Assembly: GCF_025629245.1 (NCBI RefSeq)
Contig: NZ_JANZXN010000056.1
Coordinates: 1 to 33,213 of the forward strand
DNA: 33,213 bases
DNA from: Natronobiforma cellulositropha
Lineage (GTDB): Archaea; Halobacteriota; Halobacteria; Halobacteriales; Natrialbaceae
Direction of reading: 5' to 3'
Of this stretch, positions 965 to 33,101 are shown in pieces. The position numbers were made by a program, and so were the translations under genes. Every line of letters begins with the position of its first letter. Within the stretch, counting starts at the first letter, position 1. Under the pieces are notes generated by a model. That model was given only the letters and a program-made list of their open reading frames with translations, was not told the DNA's origin and searched no databases.

Positions 965-1558
965 ATGACTGGTACCAAACTGCCGGAGTTTATCGAACGT
1001 GAGGTCCTGCTTGACGTTACAACTGTTCAAGTTCCTGATGAGGCTCTCTTGAAGTGTTTCGTACGAGCAAACAAACCGTTTCTGAGCAAATCAGCTGTTG
1101 CCGAGATGTCTGATCTCAGCGACGAGGGTGCTCGGAAGCGACTGAATTCCCTGGTAGATCGGGGAGTATTATTGAGCGCGGACGCCGGGAAACAGACCAA
1201 AATCTACTGGCTCAATAATCCGCGATCACGTTGGCCAGTACCAAGTGACTTAGCAGGAGCCCCATCTAAGCTCGAGGAACCGATGGGTGAAACTGTGATA
1301 CGGATCAACCGCTTGACGACGTTCACGATGCTGTTCGCTGGAACCATCGCCAGCCTCTATGTCCTCGAGTGGATGAGTGGCCTCCAGATTACTGATGGAG
1401 TGTTTGAGGCCTCCTTAAACCCATCAGTAATGCCAGCACTCGCGTTCGGATTGCTGGCAATTGTATTTTATATTGCCCTCCAGACATCGCTGCAGGTAGA
1501 GAACGATGATGCGGGGTGGCCAACTATCCGGCGAGTGTATCGACGAATGACTAACTAG
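965..1558 (+). CDS. Winged-helix protein with two C-terminal membrane segments
   Basis: 197 residues. Residues about 25-95 form a winged helix-turn-helix: the segment KSAVAEMSDLSDEGARKRL followed by a recognition-helix/wing stretch (LVDRGVLLSADAGKQTKIYWL) resembles MarR/ArsR-like DNA-binding domains. Two hydrophobic stretches at about 116-136 and 150-172 should anchor it in the membrane, with the DNA-binding part in the cytoplasm. This architecture is common among uncharacterised haloarchaeal regulators near mobile DNA. The target is unknown; the divergent small membrane protein is a candidate partner only by position. The ATG start follows directly on a short AT-rich leader. GC is lower than in the core genes. 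Confidence 0.65.
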   Translation: MTGTKLPEFIEREVLLDVTTVQVPDEALLKCFVRANKPFLSKSAVAEMSDLSDEGARKRLNSLVDRGVLLSADAGKQTKIYWLNNPRSRWPVPSDLAGAPSKLEEPMGETVIRINRLTTFTMLFAGTIASLYVLEWMSGLQITDGVFEASLNPSVMPALAFGLLAIVFYIALQTSLQVENDDAGWPTIRRVYRRMTN

Positions 1559-1644
1559 ACTCCTCGGTAAAATACACTGGTCAGAAAGATTGGACTCGAT
1601 ATTGTAAAGTTCTGGATTGCGATAGAGACTATTTGTCACGGCCG

Positions 1645-1747
1645 AACCAGCCTCGAGCCCTCGGACCGCATCGCCCTGATCTTCGTCGACGCGGCCGCCG
1701 ACGAGCGCCTCCCCATCGAGTCGATGCCCGGCCACGAGTGCGAGTAA
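1645..1747 (+). pseudogene. Fragment of a second hemB copy (codons about 25-56)
   Basis: Bases 1645-1738 align without gaps to hemB bases 2631-2724 with 9 mismatches in 94 (hand alignment, about 90% identity), in the same orientation. In frame it reads SLEPSDRIALIFVDAAADE and then ends after PIESMPGHECE at TAA 1745-1747. The intact gene has the equivalent region at residues 26-56. Weaker similarity may extend left to about 1635, where the frame is lost. The fragment has no start codon and lacks all catalytic residues, so it cannot work. It lies 986 bp upstream of the matching part of the true gene, with the toxin-antitoxin pair between the two copies. Confidence 0.85.
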
Positions 1748-1748
1748 A

Positions 1749-2180
1749 TCAGATGATTGCGGGATCGATCCGGTCGACGACCCCGTCGAAATCGTCGTCG
1801 AAACTGAGGACGGCGTCGATGTCGTAGTGATCGACGAGTGTGACGATAGTTGCATCCGTGAAACTGAGCGATTGATCGTCGTATCGTTCGAAGGTGTCGA
1901 CTGTACGGCTGAAGACCGGTTCAGTCACGTACAGGAGATCGAATACGCGCGGGAACGGTTCGACACCACGGATCCGTTCCCCAACCCGTATCGCCGGTTC
2001 GATTCGTCCCGTCCGTTGACGAACCAAGGTGACGGTTTCGTCGTAGACGTACTCACTGGTGAAGAGACGGCCGTATTCGCCGGTCGTGATCGTCTCGAAC
2101 GCGTCGGTGGCGATACGGTGTCGTGGTGCATCTTCGTCGTGGTGCGCGTAGAAGACGTTCGTGTCGATGAAGAGGCTCAT
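1749..2180 (-). CDS. vapC: PIN-domain toxin of VapC type
   Basis: 143 residues spanning a complete PIN nuclease domain. Acidic residues of the Mg-dependent active site are visible: D6 in the opening SLFIDTNVF, E43/E48 in SEYVYDET, D109 in FTDAT, and D128-D132 near the end. VapC toxins are site-specific RNases, usually acting on tRNA or rRNA, held inactive by a co-transcribed antitoxin. The start codon overlaps the stop of the upstream antitoxin gene by four bases (ATGA), as expected for a translationally coupled toxin-antitoxin pair. The exact RNA target cannot be read from the sequence. The gene ends one base after the hemB remnant's stop codon, on the opposite strand. Confidence 0.85.
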   Translation of the reverse strand: MSLFIDTNVFYAHHDEDAPRHRIATDAFETITTGEYGRLFTSEYVYDETVTLVRQRTGRIEPAIRVGERIRGVEPFPRVFDLLYVTEPVFSRTVDTFERYDDQSLSFTDATIVTLVDHYDIDAVLSFDDDFDGVVDRIDPAII

Positions 2181-2464
2181 TCGAGTTCAGAGCCGTACAG
2201 CGCCTCGTCGATCTCGTCTTCAGTCACAGGGTTTCCGGATGCGACGGTCCCCGAGAGAAACTGCTCGATCTCGTCTTCGGAGAGCCCGTCCCACTCCTCG
2301 CGAAACGAATCGATGAACGACGAGTGCGAGTCGTATGCTGTATCGACGAGCTGTTTTAATATCTCCTGTTGCGTCACCTTTCGTCCGGTCTCGAGTTTGA
2401 TTTCTGCTTGGAGGCGTTCGATGCGGTCTTTCGTCTGTTCGTCCATCTTCACGGAGGTCGACAT
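2177..2464 (-). CDS. vapB: Antitoxin of VapB type (ribbon-helix-helix-like)
   Basis: 95 residues. The N-terminal part (TSVKMDEQTKDRIERLQ, then KVTQQEILKQLVDTA) looks like a short beta strand plus two helices, as in CopG/ribbon-helix-helix DNA-binding antitoxins. The acidic C-terminal half (about residues 50-95) would wrap and inhibit the toxin. It is first in a two-gene operon and overlaps vapC by four bases. A candidate autoregulatory site and TATA element lie just upstream. The family is inferred from fold pattern and neighbour, since antitoxin sequences diverge fast. Confidence 0.75.
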   Translation of the reverse strand: MSTSVKMDEQTKDRIERLQAEIKLETGRKVTQQEILKQLVDTAYDSHSSFIDSFREEWDGLSEDEIEQFLSGTVASGNPVTEDEIDEALYGSELE

Positions 2465-2480
2465 AGATACAGATACACTC

Positions 2481-2504
2481 AGTAGAGAAGTAAACGTTTC
2501 TACT
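2481..2504 (-). promoter_or_regulatory. Candidate vapBC promoter with inverted-repeat operator
   Basis: An inverted repeat AGTAGA-N12-TCTACT encloses the palindrome AAACGTTT (2492-2499). On the minus strand the sequence GTTTACTT is centred about 27 bases before the vapB ATG, where a TATA box for a leaderless mRNA belongs. An operator overlapping TATA would fit the usual autorepression by the antitoxin-toxin complex. This is inferred from position and symmetry only. Confidence 0.45.
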
Positions 2505-2559
2505 GGCTCGGACGCCGAGCGTGCGAGGCGCTTTTCGTCCCGCTGACGAATACGGGTGT

Positions 2560-3567
2560 ATGGACGACTACTCGCTCACCCACCGGCCGCGTCGCCTCCG
2601 ACAGGACCGCATCCGGGGACTGGTCAGCGAAACCAGCCTCGAGCCCTCGGACCTCATCGCTCCCGTCTTCGTCGACGCGACGGCCGACGAGCGCATCCCC
2701 ATCGAGTCGATGCCCGGCCAGGAGCGCGTCCCGCTCGCCGAGGCGGTCGCCCGCGTCGAGGAGGTCCTCGAGACCGGCGTCGAGGCCGTCATGCTCTTCG
2801 GCATTCCCGAGTCGAAAGACGCCGAGGGGACCCGCGCCTGGGCCGAGGACGGCGTGATCCAGGAGGCGACCCGCCGCATCACCACGGAGACCGACGCCTA
2901 CGTCCTCACCGACGTCTGTCTGTGTGAGTACACCGACCACGGCCACTGCGGCCCGCTCGAGGACGGACTCGGCGAGGGCCACAGCCACGCGACGCTCACC
3001 GTCGACAACGACGCGACGCTCGAGCGCCTCGAGCGGATCGCCGTCTCGCACGCACGCGCGGGTGCGGATATGCTCGCGCCGAGCGGGATGATGGACGGAA
3101 TGGTGGGGGCGATGCGGTCGGCGCTGGACCGCGAGGGGTTCGAGCACCTGCCGATCATGAGCTACGCCGCGAAGTACGAGAGCGCCTTCTACGGGCCGTT
3201 TCGCGACGCCGCCGACGGCGCACCCGCCTTCGGCAACCGCCGCCACTACCAGATGGACCCCGCGAACGCGCGCGAGGCGCTCCGGGAAGTCCGCCTCGAC
3301 GTCGAGCAGGGTGCGGACGTGCTGATGGTCAAACCCGCCCTGCCCTACCTCGACATCGTCGCCGCGCTGCGTCGGGAGTTCGACCACCCCATCGCGGCCT
3401 ACAACGTCTCCGGCGAGTACGCCATGCTCCACGCCGCCGCGGAGAAGGGCTGGCTGGATCTGGAGGCAGTCGCCCACGAGTCGCTCCTCTCGATCAAGCG
3501 CGCGGGTGCGGACCTCATTCTGACCTACTTCGCAGAACAAATCGCGGCCGACCTCGGCCACGGCTGA
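2560..3567 (+). CDS. hemB: Porphobilinogen synthase (delta-aminolevulinate dehydratase)
   Basis: This cytoplasmic enzyme condenses two 5-aminolevulinate molecules to porphobilinogen. 335 residues, full length for the family. Visible features are the zinc-binding cysteines C120, C122 and C130 in the DVCLCEYTDHGHCG stretch, and the two active-site lysines K205 (SYAAKYESAF) and K258 (MVKPALPYLDIV, the Schiff-base lysine). The ATG at 2560 gives the expected N-terminus (MDDYSLTHRPRRLRQD); an in-frame upstream codon at 2521 would add residues that do not fit the family. It belongs functionally with hemL and hemC-hemD in this window. Part of its 5' region is duplicated at 1645-1738. A weak T-rich element near 2531-2537 could be its TATA box. 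Confidence 0.97.
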   Translation: MDDYSLTHRPRRLRQDRIRGLVSETSLEPSDLIAPVFVDATADERIPIESMPGQERVPLAEAVARVEEVLETGVEAVMLFGIPESKDAEGTRAWAEDGVIQEATRRITTETDAYVLTDVCLCEYTDHGHCGPLEDGLGEGHSHATLTVDNDATLERLERIAVSHARAGADMLAPSGMMDGMVGAMRSALDREGFEHLPIMSYAAKYESAFYGPFRDAADGAPAFGNRRHYQMDPANAREALREVRLDVEQGADVLMVKPALPYLDIVAALRREFDHPIAAYNVSGEYAMLHAAAEKGWLDLEAVAHESLLSIKRAGADLILTYFAEQIAADLGHG

Positions 3568-4031
3568 GCACCCCCTCGAGTCCGAACGCGACGCCGGGTG
3601 TCGAATCGTCACACACGAGCGCTACGAGCGGCGGCCGGGTTGGCCGTTCGTCCACTCGGACGGCCGCTCGAGGGAGACGGTGACAATATCTGCCGCGCGC
3701 GAGCAACAGTCGTCCGGTTCCCGCGCCAGGACGGCGGTATTTCTCCCCACAGGCCGGAACGGTGGTCTACGTTCGTCCAATGTATAAGCGCCGGTCGTAA
3801 ACCACCTGTGTGATCGATGCCCTTATACAAACAAAGGATGCCTTATATTCGTTCGATCGTCCCTCGTAGACACCCACAACCAGCCGTTTGTCAACGCTAA
3901 CCCTTATATGGAACTGAACGCTCGTACTCGAACGTGAATTGGATGACAATCACAAGTCAACAGCGTCCCACAGTGGACGTTCGTAGGGGGAATCGCGTTA
4001 CGAGTGAAACGAGTACGGAGGTGTCGGCCGA
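3568..4031. promoter_or_regulatory. Long leader region of the ammonium transporter with repeated CTTATA motifs
   Basis: No gene was found in this 464-base spacer. From 3780 to 3910 it turns AT-rich and carries CCTTATA at 3821, 3841 and 3902 (spacings 20 and 61 bases, close to whole helical turns). An inverted copy, TGTATAAG, at 3781-3788 mirrors CTTATACA at 3822-3829. Any of the CTTATA elements could serve as TATA box, implying a leader of 100 bases or more before the transporter. Repeated and mirrored promoter-like elements suggest more than one start site or a regulator binding here. Nitrogen control would be the obvious guess. Confidence 0.45.
4017..4023 (+). promoter_or_regulatory. Shine-Dalgarno site of the Amt-PII gene
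   Basis: GGAGGTG ends eight bases before ATG 4032 and is complementary to the 3' end of archaeal 16S rRNA. Most genes here look leaderless, so this site fixes the start and supports a leadered mRNA. Confidence 0.7.
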
Positions 4032-5753
4032 ATGATCGAGACCGCCGTGTTGCAGGCGACCGAGGCCGACCTCGAGGCCCTGGTCAACGGCATCAACATG
4101 ACCTGGTGGCTGACCGTCACCTTCCTGATCTTCTTCATGCACGCGGGCTTCGCGATGCTCGAGGCGGGGCAGGTCCGCTCGAAGAACGTCGCGAACCAGC
4201 TGACGAAGAACATGCTGACCTGGGCGGTCGGCATCCTCGTCTTCTTCGTCATCGGGATGGGGCTGTCGAACAACGTCGGTGCCCTACTCGGTGGTGGGGA
4301 GACCGGTTCCTGGACGATGTTCGGCGCGGACCCGAGCATCGGGATGACCGAGTGGCTGTTCAGCGCCGTCTTCGCGATGACCGCCGCCACCATCGTCTCC
4401 GGTGCGGTGGCGGGACGTGCGAAACTCCGCGCGTACATCGGGTACACGTTCTTGCTCGCCGCGCTGATCTACCCGGTCGTCGCCGCGATGGTCTGGTACG
4501 GTGGTGACCCACCAATCCTCGCCGCCATGGGCTTCGAGGACTTCGCGGGCGGGATGGTCGTCCACGGCGTCGGCGGTATCGCTGGCCTGACCGCCGCTTG
4601 GATCATCGGCGCGCGGATCGGGCGCTTCAACGAGGACGGCTCGGCGAACGTCATCCCCGGCCACTCGATGACCTTCGCCGTCCTCGGGACGCTGATCCTC
4701 TGTTTCGGCTGGTTCGGCTTCAACGTCGGGACGGCCGCAACCGTCGTCAGCTACGACGGTGGCAGTGTCATGCTCGGTGACTTCACCGTCGTCGGCCGCG
4801 TCGCCGCCGTCACCGCCCTCGGGATGGGTCTCGGGGCGATCGGTGCAGGCGGCGTCTCGTGGTGGATGAACGGGAAGGTCGACACCCTGTACGTCGCCAA
4901 CGGCATGCTCGCCGGTCTCGTCGGCGTCACCGGCCCGACCAACCTCATCACGCCGATGGGTGCGATCGCGATCGGACTGCTGGCCGGTGCACAGCTGCCG
5001 ATCGTGTTCACGTTCGTCGAGAAGTACCTCAAGATCGACGACGTCTGTGCGGTGTTCCCGGTCCACGGGAGCGCAGGCATGCTCGGTCTCATCATCTACC
5101 CGCTGTGGTCCGTCAACGGAACCGTCGTCGGTGGCGGTCTCGTCGCCGGCGGCGTCTTCTCGATCGAAGCCGGACAGTTCGTCCCACAGATCGTCGGCGT
5201 CGCCGTGATCACGGTCTGGACGGTGCTCGCGACCGCCGCCGTCTGGGGCGCGTTCAAGGCCATCGGTCAGGCACGCGTCACACCCGAACACGAACACGAC
5301 GGTCTCGACGTCGCCGAACACGGCGTCGACACCTACCCCGAGTTCGGCCAGACCGACATCGTCTCCGACGGCGGACGCGAGATCCGCACCGACGGCGGCG
5401 AGAGCGAGGCCGAACTCAAGATGGTCACCGCGATCATCCGCCCCGACCGCCTCGGCGCGGTCAAGCGCGCACTCGCCGAAACCGGCGCGCCCTCGCTCAC
5501 CGTCACCAACGTCTCCGGCCGTGGCTCCCAGCCCGCGAAGAAAGGCCAGTGGCGCGGTGAGGAGTACACCGTCGACCTCCACCAGAAGGTCAAGATCGAC
5601 TGCGTCGTCGCCGACATCCCCGCCGAAGACGTCGTCGACGCGATCCGCGACGCCGCCAACACCGGCGAACCCGGCGACGGCAAGATCTTCGTCCTCCCGG
5701 TCGACGGTGCCTACCAGGTCCGCACCGGCAAGAGCGGCACGGACGCGGTCTGA
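4032..5753 (+). CDS. Ammonium transporter fused to a PII (GlnK) regulatory domain
   Basis: 573 residues. Residues 1-415 are a complete Amt/AmtB/Rh channel with about 11 membrane helices and an opening like other haloarchaeal Amt proteins. The pore's twin histidines are present as H178 (VVHGVGG) and H345 (FPVHGSAG). A hydrophilic linker (about 415-460) leads to residues 461-573, a whole PII protein: start [22 protein letters not shown]-loop with RGEEYTVDL (Y512 corresponds to the conserved T-loop tyrosine), and the ATP-binding B-loop [10 protein letters not shown] (548-557). PII proteins normally are separate trimers that plug Amt trimers when 2-oxoglutarate is low. Here sensor and channel are one chain, so gating may be intramolecular. 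There is no stop codon or frameshift between the parts. Confidence 0.93.
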
Positions 5754-14572: not shown

Positions 14573-15318
14573 GCGTGCGCGACCTGACCGTCGCCGTCTT
14601 CAGACCCGACGACGAGCGCCTCGCGCAGGCGGTCGACCTCCTCGACTCGCTGGGTGCGACGGCGGTCGCCGACCCGATGCTCGCGGTCGAGCCAACCGGC
14701 CAGACGGCCAGAGCCGACGCCGACTACGTGATCCTGACGAGCAAGACCGGCGTCGAACTCGTCGCCGAGGCGGGCTGGCACCCCGGAGAGGCGACCGTCT
14801 GCGCCATCGGGCCGGCGACCGCCGCCTGCCTCCGCGAGGCGGGCTACGAGGTCGACGTCGTCCCCGAGACGTACACCTCGAGCGGCCTGGTAGCCGAACT
14901 CGAGCACGAGGTCGACGGCGCGCGCGTCGAAGTCGCCCGCAGCGACCACGGCAGTCCGGTGTTGCTCGAGGGACTCGAGGCGGCGGGCGCGTACCTCCAC
15001 GAGACGGTGCTCTACCGCCTCGTCCGGCCCGACGGCGCGGGTGAGAGCGTCGAGCGCGCCGCCGCGGGCGACCTCGACGCCGCCGCGTTCACCTCCTCGC
15101 TGACCGTCGAGCACTTCCTCGAGACCGCCGCCGAAGACGGGATACTCGAGGAGGCGCTCGAGGGACTCGAGACGGCAGTCGTCGGGGCGATCGGCCCGCC
15201 CACCCGGCGGACGCTCGAGGGCCACGGCGTCGCCGTCGACGTCGTCCCCGACGACGCGACCGCCGAGGAGTTGCTCTGTGCGGTCGTCGAGCGGGCCGCG
15301 CCCTCGTACACGGCCTGA
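14569..15318 (+). CDS. hemD: Uroporphyrinogen-III synthase
   Basis: It cyclises hydroxymethylbilane with inversion of ring D, producing uroporphyrinogen III for the preceding methyltransferase. 249 residues, usual length. Sequence conservation in HemD is low, but YVILTSKTGVELV (near residues 60-70), CAIGPATAACLREAGYEVDVVPETYTSS split over the two-domain hinge, and the late AVVGAIGPPTRRTLEGHGV are typical. The start is GTG (14569), overlapping the cobA stop in GTGA, which indicates translational coupling. It is the last gene of the three-gene operon. Confidence 0.92.
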
Positions 15319-15335
15319 CCGGCCGACTTTGCGCA

Positions 15336-15344
15336 CCTTTATCC
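15336..15344 (+). promoter_or_regulatory. TATA-like element of the DHH nuclease gene
   Basis: CCTTTATCC is centred about 27 bases before ATG 15368, fitting leaderless transcription and fixing the start. Confidence 0.55.
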
Positions 15345-15367
15345 CGGAAGGCGAACCACCACCAGCC

Positions 15368-16795
15368 ATGACCGGTCCGGTTCCCGAACTCGCGGATCGT
15401 GCGGTCGCGTGCGCACAGCGGTTGCTCGAGACCGACCGCGTGCTGCTCGCCTCCCACATCGACGCCGACGGGCTGACGAGCGCCGCCGTCGCCGCACAGG
15501 CGCTCGAGCGCGCCGGGATTCCCTTCGAGGCGGTGTTCGAGAAACAGCTCGACGAGGCGGCGATTGCGGGCATCGCCGCCCGCGAGTACGACACCGTCCT
15601 GTTCACTGACTTCGGGAGCGGCCAGCTCGACGTGATCGCCGACTACGAGCGCCGCGGCGCGTTCACGCCCGTCATCGCCGACCACCACCAGCCAGCAGAG
15701 ACCGACACCGAGTACCACCTCAACCCGCTGCTGGTCGGTCTCAACGGCGCGTCGGAGCTCTCGGGAGCAGGCGCGAGTTACGTCCTCGCGCGGGCGCTCG
15801 CCGCAGAGAGCGAGTGTGAAATCGAACACGAGAACCGCGATCTGGCGGCGCTGGCGGTCGTGGGTGCCGTCGGCGACATGCAGGCCTCGAGCGGCGAACT
15901 CCACGGCGCGAACGCCGGCATCGTCGCCGAAGGCGAGACCGCGGGCGTCCTCGAGACCGGTCCCGACCTCTCCCTCTACGGAAAACAGACCCGGCCGCTG
16001 CCGAAACTGCTCGAGTACGCCTCGGACGTCCGGATTCCCGGAATTTCGAACGATGCCAACGGCGCGCTGCGCTTTCTCGACGGACTCGACCTCGAGCTGA
16101 CCCGCGACGGCGAGTGGCGCTGCTGGTCCGAACTCACGAGCGAGGAGAAACAGGTCCTCGCGAGCGCGCTCGTCAGACGCGCCGTCTCGCGGGGCGTTCC
16201 GGCGGGCCGGATCGACGGTCTCGTCTCTACCGCCTACGTCCTCAGCGACGAACCCGTCGGGAGCGAACTCCGTGACGCGAGCGAGTTCTCGACGCTGCTG
16301 AACGCGACCGCCCGCTACGAGCGCGCCGACGTCGGTCTCGGCGTCTGTCTCGGCAACCGGGAGGGTGCGCTCGAGCGCGCGCGGACGCTGCTTCGCGACC
16401 ACCGCCGGAACCTCTCCGCTGGCATCGACCTCGTCACGCGCGAGGGCGTCACCGTCGAGGACAACCTCCAGTGGTTCCACGCGGGCGACCGGATCCGCGA
16501 GACCATCGTCGGCATCGTCGCGGGGATGGCCCTCGGCAACGGTGGGATCAGCCGCGAGAAGCCGATCCTCGCGTTCGCCGCGAAGAACGACGACGAACTC
16601 AAAGTCTCCGCCCGTGGGACGCACGCGCTCGTCGGGCGCGGTCTCGACCTCTCGGCGGTCGTCGGCGAAGCCGCGAGAGCCGTCGGTGGCGACGGCGGCG
16701 GCCACGACGTCGCCGCGGGGGCGACCGTCCCGAAAGGCGAAGAAGAGGCGTTCCTCGAGCGTGCCGACGCCATCGTCGGCGAGCAACTCGGCTGA
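15368..16795 (+). CDS. DHH/DHHA1 phosphoesterase, archaeal RecJ-like (GAN-type) nuclease
   Basis: 475 residues. The DHH-family metal motifs appear in order: SHIDADG (29-35), FTDFGSG, IADHHQP and VGDMQ. A DHHA1 substrate-binding domain sits at the C-terminus with GGGHDVAAGATVP. Archaeal members act as single-strand exonucleases; the GINS-associated nuclease GAN belongs to this family and binds the CMG helicase. Whether this paralogue is GAN or another RecJ-like protein cannot be settled by eye. It has its own promoter after hemD, and its stop directly abuts the stop of the convergent PHP gene with no spacer. Confidence 0.88.
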   Translation: MTGPVPELADRAVACAQRLLETDRVLLASHIDADGLTSAAVAAQALERAGIPFEAVFEKQLDEAAIAGIAAREYDTVLFTDFGSGQLDVIADYERRGAFTPVIADHHQPAETDTEYHLNPLLVGLNGASELSGAGASYVLARALAAESECEIEHENRDLAALAVVGAVGDMQASSGELHGANAGIVAEGETAGVLETGPDLSLYGKQTRPLPKLLEYASDVRIPGISNDANGALRFLDGLDLELTRDGEWRCWSELTSEEKQVLASALVRRAVSRGVPAGRIDGLVSTAYVLSDEPVGSELRDASEFSTLLNATARYERADVGLGVCLGNREGALERARTLLRDHRRNLSAGIDLVTREGVTVEDNLQWFHAGDRIRETIVGIVAGMALGNGGISREKPILAFAAKNDDELKVSARGTHALVGRGLDLSAVVGEAARAVGGDGGGHDVAAGATVPKGEEEAFLERADAIVGEQLG

Positions 16796-17548
16796 TCAGC
16801 GTCGGTCCATCGACGCCGGGACCGTCGGAACGAGCGGCGCGCGCGAGGTCAGGAGGTAGGCGGACTTTCGGGCTGCCCCCTTCGCGTACTGGACGGTGCT
16901 CTTTCGGACCGGCGTGCGTTTGCCGCGGATCTGGGTGCGTCCCTCGAGAATCGCCTCGACGAGGTCCTCGCCGTCGATGTCGGCTTTCGCGGTGTCGGGC
17001 GCTCTCGGTTCGACCAGCACGTCGGTGTAGGCGCGCCCGACGTTCGGGAGGTAGTGGGCGTCACTGGCACCGATCAGCGGGTAGTCGCGCCGGATCGCGA
17101 AGGTCTTCGCCCGGCGGTTGCGGTAGCCGGTAAAGAGCATCGAGTTGTAGGCCTCGATGGCGTCGGCGTCGGTGATGTGGCGCTTTCTGACGCCGTGACG
17201 GCTCCGCTGGAAGGGGTGGGGAACGATCGCGATACCGCCGAGTTCGCGGACGGTCTCGACCGTGTCCGCGAAGGGCCGACCCGGCTGTGGGCGTTCGTCG
17301 ACACCGATGGCCAGAAGGTGGCCGTGGCGCGTCGAGACCTCGACGCCGGGAATGCCGACGAGACCGTACTCGGGGGCGATGGCCGCCGCACGGCGGGACT
17401 CGGCGATCTCGTCGTGGTCGGTGATGACGACCCCGTCGAGACCGATGTCGGCGGCGTGTTCTAAGATCAGTTCGATCGGTTCGTGGCCGTCGTAGGAGTC
17501 GTCCGAGTGGACGTGAAAGTCGATCCGAAAGCGTCTCAGAGCGGTCAT
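16796..17548 (-). CDS. PHP-domain metal-dependent phosphoesterase
   Basis: 250 residues. The PHP motifs are visible: DFHVHSDDS (residues 10-18), VITDHDE (41-47), IPGVEVST (64-71), VPHPF (108-112) and GASDAHYLP (about 158-166). They supply the histidines and aspartates for three metals. Stand-alone PHP proteins hydrolyse phosphoesters such as 3',5'-bisphosphonucleotides or short RNA/DNA pieces, but the substrate is not predictable here. The C-terminal 50 residues are basic and Ala-rich (KSTVQYAKGAARKSAYLL). It converges tail to tail with the DHH nuclease. A possible TATA (GTTTATAC, complement near 17594-17601) would give a short leader. Confidence 0.9.
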   Translation of the reverse strand: MTALRRFRIDFHVHSDDSYDGHEPIELILEHAADIGLDGVVITDHDEIAESRRAAAIAPEYGLVGIPGVEVSTRHGHLLAIGVDERPQPGRPFADTVETVRELGGIAIVPHPFQRSRHGVRKRHITDADAIEAYNSMLFTGYRNRRAKTFAIRRDYPLIGASDAHYLPNVGRAYTDVLVEPRAPDTAKADIDGEDLVEAILEGRTQIRGKRTPVRKSTVQYAKGAARKSAYLLTSRAPLVPTVPASMDRR

Positions 17549-18503
17549 AGGATCCGTCGGTAGACGGTGCTATTCTCAGTAGTCCGGTAGCACGTATAAA
17601 CACTGTGCCTCGAGTCAAAACTGCGCTCTCGAGCGACATCGTACGTACGAGCCGCTGACGGGCCGAAGAGCGTGTGGCTGTGCGAACGGTGCGGTCACCG
17701 AGCACCCAGATTTTGTATCGCACAATATAGTTTATCGGCCCCGGCCAGTGAGAGACGGGAGACGGCCAGAAACCGGCCGCTGCGGCCGACACGCGTACGT
17801 AGAGGGGCAGCAGGGGGTGGGTGGGACCGTCTCAGCGGCTGGTGTGTGAACCAGTGGCGAATCCGAGAGCGCTCGAGCAGCCAGCCCACCCACTGAGGTC
17901 GTGGCTCGAGCCACTCGAAGCGACAGCTCGAGCGTCACGTCCGGCGTCGGCGTCTCACAGTGGGCAGTGTGGGACGCAGAAAGAGAGCGCGAATCAGTGG
18001 AGTTCGTCGCACTGCCCCGAATTCAGCCGCGTCGGCGACTCGAGCACAGCGAGCCGGTGAACAGCGAGCGACGGGGGCACAAAATCAGTGTTCCGTCCTC
18101 CACCGCCACACTGTGACCTGTGTGGCCAGTGGCCACCACTGCGAGACGTCCGAACACGGGGACGAGCCACCCGGTTGGTACACCGAGATGGTGTTGATCG
18201 AACCCGTCCAGGCGAGAGACGTGGACCGACGGAGACCGCCAACCACGATCTACCCTCGTCCGTGCGCGAGTGGGTCGGGACGGCCGGGAGACGCTCACAG
18301 ATCGGTGAGTAGCCTCGCGCTCGAGCAGCGCTGGCCGAGAACCGGCGTGAGACACTCGAGTGCAGCGTTCTGAGGGAGTTTGCGGGAGATGTGAGCAGCA
18401 CGCCCGTAGTCACCCCATAAACTTCATGATGCGATACAAAATGAGGAGGCGAGAGCCAGGTGTCGGGGCCAAAGCCTAAGCGGCTGTGTGGTGGCCGTGG
18501 CGT
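17549..18503. other. Gene-free spacer between PHP and sulfatase genes
   Basis: Short open frames of 70-140 codons occur on both strands, but they are basic, low in acidic residues, and look like chance frames in GC-rich DNA. The region holds the 29-bp inverted repeat pair described separately and a 9-bp inverted pair (GTGGGTGGG/CCCACCCAC) around 17815-17895. The right end should contain the sulfatase promoter (CCTAAG at 18475-18480, about 27 bases before its ATG). No transposase remnant was recognised. Confidence 0.5.
17710..18442. repeat. 733-bp segment bounded by 29-bp inverted repeats
   Basis: Bases 17710-17738 and the reverse complement of 18414-18442 match at 24 of 29 positions, including a perfect 13-mer ATTTTGTATCGCA at the outer ends and AGTTTAT inside. 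No flanking target-site duplication was seen. The pair could be the ends of a small non-autonomous element (MITE-like). Alternatively, they could be two copies of one promoter/operator facing outwards towards the PHP gene and the sulfatase gene. Confidence 0.6.
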
Positions 18504-20171
18504 ATGAGCGAGCGCGAGCGGCCGAACGTGGTCTGGATCGCGATGGAGGACACCTCGCCGCGGCTGGGCTGTTACGGCGACGAGGTGGCGCGAACCCCCG
18601 AGATCGACCGTCTCGCTGCGTCGGGGCGACGCTTTCCGAACGCGTTCGTCACCGCCCCCGTCTGTGCGCCGAGCCGGTCGGCCATCGTCACCGGCTGTCA
18701 CCAGAACGCCATCGGGACCCACCACATGCGGACGACCCACACGAACGAGGACGCGCCAGGGCTGGCGACGCCGTACGAGACCGTCCCGCCACACTACGTC
18801 CGGGGCATCACGGAGTACTTCCGGCAGGCGGGCTACTACTGTACGCTCGACCTGAAGACCGACTATCAGTTCGGCGAGCCGTTCACCATGTGGGACCACC
18901 ACGGCGAGGGTGCGGGCTGGTGGGACGACGCCCGCGAGGACGGCCAGCCCTTCTTCGCGATGGTCACCAACTTCGTCACCCACGAGAGCGGGATGTGGGA
19001 GCCAGCCCAGCGAGGGCCGGAGACCGGCGGCACGGCGGGCGACGGTGGGGACGAAACGCTCGAGACCGATCCCGATACCGTCGACGTGCCCCCGTATCTC
19101 GCCGACACCGAGGCGACGCGGCGAGCGATCGCTCGCCAGTACGACAACGTCGCGGCCTCGGACGCCTGGGTCGGTGACCTCCTCGAGCGGCTCGAGCGCG
19201 ACGGACTCGCCGAGAACACTATCGTCGTCCTCTGGAGCGACCACGGTGAGGGGCTGCCCCGGGCGAAGCGGTGGGTGTATCAGGGCGGCGTGAACGTCCC
19301 GCTGATCGTACGCTGGCCGGGCGTCGTCGACGGCGGGAGCGTCGACGAGCGGGTGGTGAGTCTGGTCGACCTGGGACCGACGATGCTCGCGGCGTGTGGA
19401 CTCGAGCGGCCGCGTCACCTGGATGGGCGGCCGTTTCTCGCGGAGGCGAGCGCCGAGGCGGAGCGACCACGGGAGTACGCGTTCGTGACGCGGGATCGCT
19501 ACGACGAGTCCTACGACGTGGTGCGGTCGGTCCGCGACGAGCGCTTCACCTACGTCCGCCACGCCGAGCCGGGACGCCCGTACCGGCTGTGGATTCCGTT
19601 CCGGAACCGCCACCCCGCGATGGCCGACCTGCTCCGACTGGATGCGGAGGACGCGCTGACCGGCGCACAGACCTGGGTCGGCGACAGACGGCCCGCCGAG
19701 GAACTCTACGACCGGGCGAACGATCCCCACGAGACGGAGAATCTGGCGGACGATCCGTCGTACGCGGCCGATCTCGAGCGCCTGCGCGGGGTGCTCGACG
19801 ACTGGCTCGAGCGCGTCGACGACGCCGGCGCGCGCTCGGAGGCCCGACAGGTCTTCGAGGGGTGGCAGGGGGACGAACAGCCGCAGACGGCGCAACCGGC
19901 GTTCGTCCCGAACGCGCCGGGAGAGCGCGAGGAGCGAACGATGAACGACGGAGGGACGCTCGCCGAGCCCGCGACGCTTTCGGTCCACTGTTCGACGCAG
20001 GGCGCGTCGGTTGGCTACACGCTCGAGGACGGCGACGACCCGCACTGGCGGCTCTACACGGGACCGATACCCCTCGAGACCGGGGAGACGACGGTTCGGA
20101 CGAAGGCGATCCGGTACGGCTACGGGGAGAGCGAGGAGCGGGCGGCGACGTTCGTCGTCGAGGAGAGCTGA
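18504..20171 (+). CDS. Sulfatase (alkaline-phosphatase superfamily) with C-terminal beta domain
   Basis: 555 residues from ATG 18504, which has CCTAAG at TATA distance. PNVVWIAMEDTSPRLGCYGDE opens the sulfatase fold, and VCAPSRSAIVTG contains the C-x-P-S-R motif whose C54 would be converted to formylglycine. GCHQNAIGTHH and WSDHGEG (metal-binding D and H) follow. There is no Sec or Tat signal, so it is probably cytoplasmic. It resembles the N-sulfoglucosamine sulfohydrolase/arylsulfatase branch. After about residue 480 comes a separate domain (SVHCSTQGASVGYTLEDGD) like the chitobiase/hexosaminidase C-terminal beta domain (CHB_HEX_C-like). It probably desulfates sugars or glycans; the exact substrate is unknown. 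A formylglycine-generating enzyme is not in the window. Confidence 0.88.
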   Translation: MSERERPNVVWIAMEDTSPRLGCYGDEVARTPEIDRLAASGRRFPNAFVTAPVCAPSRSAIVTGCHQNAIGTHHMRTTHTNEDAPGLATPYETVPPHYVRGITEYFRQAGYYCTLDLKTDYQFGEPFTMWDHHGEGAGWWDDAREDGQPFFAMVTNFVTHESGMWEPAQRGPETGGTAGDGGDETLETDPDTVDVPPYLADTEATRRAIARQYDNVAASDAWVGDLLERLERDGLAENTIVVLWSDHGEGLPRAKRWVYQGGVNVPLIVRWPGVVDGGSVDERVVSLVDLGPTMLAACGLERPRHLDGRPFLAEASAEAERPREYAFVTRDRYDESYDVVRSVRDERFTYVRHAEPGRPYRLWIPFRNRHPAMADLLRLDAEDALTGAQTWVGDRRPAEELYDRANDPHETENLADDPSYAADLERLRGVLDDWLERVDDAGARSEARQVFEGWQGDEQPQTAQPAFVPNAPGEREERTMNDGGTLAEPATLSVHCSTQGASVGYTLEDGDDPHWRLYTGPIPLETGETTVRTKAIRYGYGESEERAATFVVEES

Positions 20172-25409: not shown

Positions 25410-26274
25410 AGTACATCTCCCAATATCCGTAGCGTAGCGTAATGTATCAGCTCACACACTTAAGTGTTGAGGATAGAACGTCGTACGCGAGCGTACAGAC
25501 GGCAGAGTAGTCACGCGTCCATCACGACCGGCCTGTCGCTTTCGAACACCACTCGTTCACCCGAGAAGTCCGACGACGATGTGCTCCCGTACAGCCCACG
25601 GGACGAGCCGAGCGTAACGAGAGCCGCCGCTGTGACCGTGGTCGAGAGAGTACACGGTCCTCCGTGCAGAAAACGGTCGGTTCCGACGACTCACCGAGTT
25701 CGTTACGTGCTGGCATACCTATCAGTGAACGTGCGGTACACCGAGTGGCTCGAGGTGTGTGCGAAGAACCGCGTTCTGTCGTGTACGGCAGACGCCTGCC
25801 TCGGCGTTGGTAGCCGATGCTTACATTCATACGCGTGTAATGGTTGGAAAAACAGACACACGGCCGTCGGTACGGACGGAAAACACGGGCGCTCGGTGAG
25901 CGAGCGGGGCGTTCTATCGAGACACAGAGCGAGTCGCGGACGCGGCAACCGGTCTCCCCTCGGAGAAGGAGTGAACGTCCCGCTTCGGAACGTCGTTCCT
26001 CATGAGGGAACACTCCATCATTTCTGGAAGAGAGCCATACCGACCGAGCACCGGGCGGTCAGTGCCGCCTCACCCTCCAGGAGACGTTGTACACGCGCCA
26101 GGCGGGCGAGTCGAGGCGTTCCGGCCGAATAACCGACGGGTCAGGATCGAAGCGGCGCGTTCCAGACCGGTGAATACGGATTTGTTCAGTAGAACACAGT
26201 TCTGAATAATAGGACGTTCGAGCGCAGGTGGTAGCCGGGTGGAAACCGCCCGCGGAGAAACGCTCAGAGCGCAG
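25410..26274. other. Long spacer without convincing genes
   Basis: 865 bases. Frames up to about 220 codons exist, but they are rich in Arg, Cys and Ser and lack the acidic character of haloarchaeal proteins, so they are judged non-coding. No tRNA, CRISPR or repeat structure was identified. GC is slightly lower than in the neighbours. The right part holds the end of the FAH-family gene on the minus strand; the left part should hold the transducer promoter. Confidence 0.4.
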
Positions 26275-32977: not shown

Positions 32978-33101
32978 ACGGCGGTGAGCGAACGTGTTAC
33001 CGTGCGTTACACGCGTATGGTTGTAATATTCCAGACGACGCGTTCACCGGCCGTGTGCACACGAAACGGCGCGACACTCGAGCGAACGGCAGGCGGCCCG
33101 G

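Follow-up and report, generated by a model that had tools for sequence, protein, structure and literature searches.

Outward-facing pairs of a 26-bp motif on haloarchaeal chromosomes and their link to a XerA-like tyrosine recombinase

Why should a stretch of gene-free DNA on a haloarchaeal chromosome be bordered by two mirrored copies of one sequence? In a 33,213-nucleotide stretch of the Natronobiforma cellulositropha genome (the window, i.e. the whole stretch of DNA that was analysed), an earlier note had described such a repeat between a PHP-domain gene and a sulfatase gene, and had proposed either a non-autonomous mobile element or two promoter/operator copies that face apart and tie both genes to one regulator. 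Recomputation confirmed the repeat (Table 1). Its 29-nt arms are complementary at 24 of 29 positions (83%), with 675 nt between them and 733 nt from outer end to outer end, and the outer 13-mer ATTTTGTATCGCA is perfect in both arms and occurs exactly twice in the window. Chance had rightly been regarded as an improbable source: at up to two mismatches 0.07 occurrences of the 13-mer are expected in the window, and two copies arose in none of 100 shuffles. The inverted repeat is real and far beyond chance. The wording of 29-bp repeats 733 bp apart needs correction, as 733 bp is measured between the outer ends, and what is conserved is a unit of 26 bp and not 29. In the rest of the source genome, a haloarchaeal draft of 60 contigs and 3.76 Mb, the 13-mer was found neither exactly nor with one mismatch.

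Table 1. Features of the repeat locus, in positions of the window.
Feature	Position	Strand	Remarks
DHH/DHHA1 gene, conserved landmark adjoining the pair	15278..16795	+	domain search; site past its 3' end in 22 of 30 loci
PHP-domain metallohydrolase gene	16796..17548	-	PF13263/PF02811; left site points toward gene start
Left arm of reported 29-bp inverted repeat	17710..17738	.	repeat search of window
Left 26-bp site, reading outward, ATAAACTATATTGTGCGATACAAAAT	17710..17735	-	matrix 44.0 bits; 0 mismatches to degenerate motif
Gene-free spacer between sites	17736..18416	.	no homologue in 60 relatives; unrelated to same-place spacers of other genera
Right arm of reported 29-bp inverted repeat	18414..18442	.	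repeat search of window
Right 26-bp site, reading outward, ATAAACTTCATGATGCGATACAAAAT	18417..18442	+	matrix 41.2 bits; 0 mismatches to degenerate motif
Sulfatase gene, beyond right site	18504..20171	+	PF00884

The segment between the arms is gene-free, as had been claimed, and neither Pfam, coding bias nor Rfam supports any gene in it. Its two long ORFs have no Pfam match, its small ORFs lack coding bias, and no RNA of Rfam matches the spacer; a decayed regulator was rejected as its content, there being no protein or RNA match. Among 60 relatives the 733-bp segment has short matches only and no homologue. The genes before PHP are, in this order, hemC, cobA, a gene that from its place we take to be hemD-like, and DHH. 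Elsewhere in the window a 98-bp direct repeat of 90% identity (1645-1742 versus 2631-2728) may reflect a recent partial gene duplication, and an AT-rich 33-bp inverted repeat (25821-25853 versus 32994-33026; 76%, ~7 kb apart), unrelated to the 26-bp site, lies around Gfo/Idh/MocA genes.

Read outward, each arm of the repeat fits the degenerate pattern ATAAACTNNATNNTGCGATACAAAAT. At up to three mismatches this pattern matches 123 of 199 haloarchaeal genomes, and the reversed control none. The source genome alone has 15 such places (control 0), and eight at up to one mismatch, rather than the one site per chromosome of an Xer/dif system; among its outward-facing pairs are those on contigs C7, C8, C26, C52 (the pair of the window) and C56. 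A phylum scan at one mismatch matched all 24 sampled Halobacteria with 2-10 sites each (controls 0). Searched in this way, as the earlier note had advised, the genome and its relatives show several copies per haloarchaeal genome, and not the single copy per genome that the note would have counted against its own proposal.

A matrix trained on 179 sites, all of them first found by the pattern, yields the 26-bp and partly palindromic consensus RTAAAYYNNATDNYGCKATAYNRAAT, with which 297 distinct sites agree. The motif is most self-symmetric as a 22-bp palindrome with GC at its centre and RTAA extra on one side. Its dyad is best with zero spacer, in place of the two 11-bp arms and 6-bp spacer of Xer/dif sites, and the register with a 6-bp spacer scores -32.7. 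The half-site weakly resembles known Xer arms, with P values of 0.02-0.03 for one Acinetobacter arm and 0.07-0.10 for one Pyrococcus abyssi arm, four others being not significant. Matches were also found in 23 viral contigs; these were taken as chance because 22 of the 23 are AT-rich (GC 0.29-0.43) and none has a recombinase relative, and a viral origin of the site was rejected. We found no account of the motif in the literature searched, where many subscription papers fell outside coverage. The motif is real and class-wide and, as far as that literature goes, undescribed.

The sites obey a common geometry. Among 73 pairs of adjacent sites in the fetched loci 67 face outward, as in the window, and two each are arranged as (-,-), (+,-) and (+,+). 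The outward pairs span 112 to 4037 bp and enclose a RIO2 kinase gene, hemC-cobA units, a panE-like gene (RIO2 and panE being names that we assume from the translations), a recombinase gene together with DUF5805, small zinc-finger ORFs or nothing recognisable. In two seemingly gene-free pairs (L126 and L226) there is a small ORF, 71-74 codons long, with a CPxC zinc finger. By heuristic gene calls, 165 of 184 sites lie outside genes. On neither side of these 184 sites do the neighbouring genes keep a fixed direction: outer genes point away at 72 sites and toward the site at 83, with no gene close by at 29; for inner genes the counts in these three classes are 61, 60 and 63. An RNA stem between the arms was rejected, since positions vary without covariation within pairs.

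The 26-bp site is ancient and is kept by haloarchaea around certain genes. Among the rio2 loci selected by protein, which are the best 30 matches and not a random sample and share at least the source genome, G070, G007, G034 and G016 with the matrix training set, all 30 have at least one site and 26 have both orientations, compared with 3 of 30 for the reversed matrix. In rio2 loci from other families a site of at least 20 bits is present in 19 of 25; in families f2 and f15 sites are weak or absent. In 45 loci the distance from the end of the upstream site to rio2 is 46-427 bp, and in 35 of them it is within 100 bp. Between this site and the start codon lies a leaderless promoter with AT peaks at -25 to -29 and at -10, so that the pair encloses a whole transcription unit. 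In loci L459-L463 (genus g14) the upstream site is 2.8-3.1 kb off, so that the pair contains extra DNA, and it still faces outward.

The pair of the window, too, sits at a conserved place, beside DHH and PHP, and its spacer is free to change. In the best 30 DHH loci by protein a site is found past the 3' end of the gene in 22, and with the reversed matrix in one. Counterparts of the window's pair adjoin PHP in G070 and G112, and gene-free pairs with unrelated spacers adjoin DHH in G016 and G021. Of 29 genomes of genus g9, 27 retain the PHP-side site, which lies ~100 bp upstream of PHP, and its mean pairwise identity across these 27 is 0.765 versus 0.29-0.34 in six adjacent sequence windows. 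The partner site is present in 18 of the 29 genomes (at 18 bits) and the left site stands alone in nine, while the spacer gives no alignment in most members. In L243 at ~2340-2430, and at the same place in most g9 genomes, the gene past the right site is preceded by two TTAGGNNNNCCTAAA boxes that resemble haloarchaeal iron-regulator boxes.

Few haloarchaea, 6 of 149 genomes, have the sulfatase gene, and its relatives are mostly from Poribacteria and Latescibacteria MAGs, suggesting that it may have been transferred between domains. The DHH/PHP-side site is common nonetheless. With a partner gene so rare, with outer genes running toward the site about as often as away from it and with a rio2 promoter separate from the site, the proposed joint control of PHP and sulfatase by one regulator is not supported. 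The more general part of that proposal, two protein-binding copies facing apart, is supported by the recurrence of the site and by the outward rule.

The best candidate for the binding protein is a tyrosine recombinase of the chromosomal Xer family with domains PF00589 and PF02899. It is encoded, mostly as a single copy, by 188 of 199 haloarchaeal genomes, including all 172 that are complete. Its best NCBIfam match is recomb_XerA_Arch (106.5 bits, below the cut-off of 220), and its PDB relatives are XerD and XerA. In the source genome the gene (C7:179682-180701) lies inside an outward pair. Sites accompany all of the 30 best recombinase loci selected by protein, at least G182, G195 and G132 of which also served in training, compared with 4 of 106 control loci that are mostly bacterial (76 from bacterial records) and whose four positives include L031, fetched for a DNA match to the window's own site. 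The 3' site is 65-271 bp past the recombinase gene (20 loci). When loci were selected by the motif, relatives of three tyrosine-recombinase groups were found in 18 of 100, versus 2 of 103 control loci.

Two other tyrosine-integrase groups (L188, L189, L198, L216, L167, L199 and L229) have a single site at most ~300 bp upstream, pointing away. In L241 (G112, 1546-5582) and L237 (G016, 1893-5550) a single outward pair encloses two DUF5805-recombinase copies, divergent from each other and 68-74% identical over their aligned parts; one G016 copy looks broken. DUF5805 itself was rejected as the binder of the site, being absent from families f9 and f11, which keep sites.

A complete Xer catalytic set has His or Trp before the nucleophile. 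In the haloarchaeal recombinase Asp replaces the His of LGH in all 50 matches, which represent 50 loci with some genes counted twice and were found with a pattern that required the TYTH end; HxxR and Tyr are kept. This replacement fits an enzyme whose strand exchange may be weak or lost.

Outside Halobacteria the motif occurs at one mismatch in 10 of 124 genomes, which we guess to be methanogens, with 1-2 sites each (controls 0). Ten loci, found by the motif alone, were fetched from eight of these genomes, G312 and G316 being left out. A tyrosine recombinase is near the site in four of the ten, the distance from its stop to the site being 12 bp in L465, 627 bp in L468, 41 bp in L471 and 34 bp in L473, and in L471 and L473 the gene lies inside an outward pair. 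Three of the four recombinases were scanned and all three are above NCBI's XerA cut-off, while the other six loci have no recombinase relative near the site. The link between site and recombinase, seen both in and outside Halobacteria, is well supported. Linkage alone is no proof that the recombinase is the binder, because rio2 is equally tightly linked to sites.

We infer a tentative reading, to which we give slightly less than an even chance: the pair of the window would belong to a class-wide set of paired Xer-type sites at which synapsis by a recombinase loops out a segment and makes a boundary. Each 26-bp copy would be bound by the mostly single-copy XerA-like tyrosine recombinase or by a complex containing it, and two inverted, outward-facing copies would be synapsed to close a small loop. 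The loop would set the enclosed segment apart from its surroundings, in most cases a complete transcription unit including its promoter and, in the window, an empty 681-bp stretch. Strand exchange between partners would be rare or lost. It is conceivable, if rather doubtful, that an ancestral XerA/dif has become a chromosome-organising system in which a recombinase without the catalytic His bridges several conserved, inverted, dif-derived pairs, giving gene-sized loops round rio2, its own gene and others as well as gene-free anchors like that of the window.

The sites may instead be boundary or operator sites of another DNA-binding protein that works in inverted pairs, as an insulator, a loop anchor or a directional polymerase block, with the recombinase gene as one enclosed client. 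Such a protein would account for rio2 being linked as tightly as the recombinase, the 22-bp palindrome would suit a dimeric regulator, and the unbiased direction of neighbouring genes agrees with it, as does G048, where strong rio2 sites are found with no recombinase match in a genome that is 78% complete. G039 and G148, which have the recombinase and no rio2 site, also count against the recombinase as binder, as do the weak likeness of the half-site to Xer arms, the dyad without a 6-bp spacer and the six outside loci where no recombinase relative is near the site. Another protein would leave unexplained why XerA is linked to sites outside Halobacteria and why tyrosine recombinases are over-represented next to sites, and the obvious partner, DUF5805, is missing in two families with sites; we regard this alternative as possible but on the unlikely side. 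The regulon of a single transcription factor was rejected, the downstream genes being too diverse. Regulated promoters, in which the palindrome and a TATA-like RTAAA/TTTAY would act inward or outward, are very improbable: RTAAA is indeed among the most conserved blocks of the motif, but neither flank of 297 sites shows a start-site or -10 pattern, gene directions are unbiased on both sides and rio2 has its separate promoter. Least credible of all is a MITE, a non-autonomous transposon whose terminal repeats would be the 29-bp arms. Gene-free DNA between inverted ends is what such an element would show, but there is no second copy of it, no multi-copy family and no homologous spacer in 60 relatives; a target duplication is absent, as the earlier note had already seen, and the same place is kept over many genera with unrelated spacers.

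If the pairs were modules of active recombination, as pdif modules are in Acinetobacter, the cassettes between inverse Xer sites would invert or move. Whole self-contained units do lie between inversely oriented, Xer-linked sites, G016 and G112 have two divergent recombinase copies in one pair, and in four g9 genomes the recombinase module is inverted relative to the c1-c2-c4 cluster when compared with the source genome and genera g10 and g33. This difference is one old exception between genera, and flank-side tests give next to no further sign of modules moving or inverting. Over the variable core (positions 9-17) true partners resemble each other no more than shuffled ones do; at positions 24, 25 and 7 the resemblance is slightly higher, with uncorrected p of 0.01-0.04. 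With strand assigned by tblastn, flanks keep their side in 168 of 174 rio2 locus pairs, in 342 of 342 DHH control pairs and in 432 of 432 recombinase pairs, the last count saying little on inversion as the 1.5-kb upstream flank is mostly within the pair. The six swapped rio2 pairs are weak (81-190 bits), and with 6-kb flanks 0 of 20 rio2 loci are swapped. Moreover, the order hemL-hemC-cobA-hemD-DHH is identical with and without sites. We therefore consider active modules improbable. Since cores are unmatched, flanks keep their side and the LGH His is Asp, frequent exchange between partners is unlikely and synapsis without exchange would fit; unmatched cores and rare flips speak for pairing or looping of Xer-type sites rather than for their routine recombination.

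Paired and looped Xer-type sites, as we favour them, share features with several known systems. In REPIN-RAYT a single-copy, vertically kept enzyme gene is flanked by inverted short repeats that are also paired elsewhere, as with the haloarchaeal sites, whereas the enzyme is of another class, the copies are far more numerous and the partners much closer. In XerH/difH the site is linked to the recombinase gene. The same holds for XerS/difSL, which according to the accessible part of its description (PMC2731167) has one site, in contrast to the many outward pairs of haloarchaea. Archaeal XerA/dif of P. abyssi (accessible part of PMC2958812) likewise combines an Xer-family tyrosine recombinase with a short imperfect palindrome with AT-rich arms, and outside Halobacteria our sites are near genes above NCBI's XerA cut-off. 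That dif is 11+6+11 bp long, single-copy and, in Thermococcales, not adjoining xerA, whereas haloarchaea have several inverted pairs per genome, a dyad without the 6-bp spacer, sites on both sides of the recombinase gene and Asp for the LGH His.

Acinetobacter pdif modules, in the accessible parts of PMC12907356 and PMC6449649, consist of self-contained genes between two inversely oriented Xer-type sites, an arrangement that the haloarchaeal units with their own promoter inside share, and one half of the pdif site resembles the haloarchaeal half, ATACGAAAT. The pdif modules are mobile on plasmids and chromosomes, whereas the haloarchaeal ones are chromosomal, at conserved places and static. 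Related literature, likewise accessible in part, includes PMC8371274 and PMC3646895. For Hi-C loop anchors no motif was found in the accessible part of PMC9764264. In Haloferax volcanii, according to a review (PMC7776575), 4 of 12 xerC/D-like genes had been deleted with viability kept; in its accessible part the review leaves their role open.

The sites appear to form a set of chromosome markers, so far undescribed, that spans the haloarchaeal class. With a class-wide signal, a strict pair geometry and a nominated protein, they would provide a candidate location of haloarchaeal dif-like sites, and the same pairs are a candidate for what may fix short loops or boundaries on haloarchaeal chromosomes.
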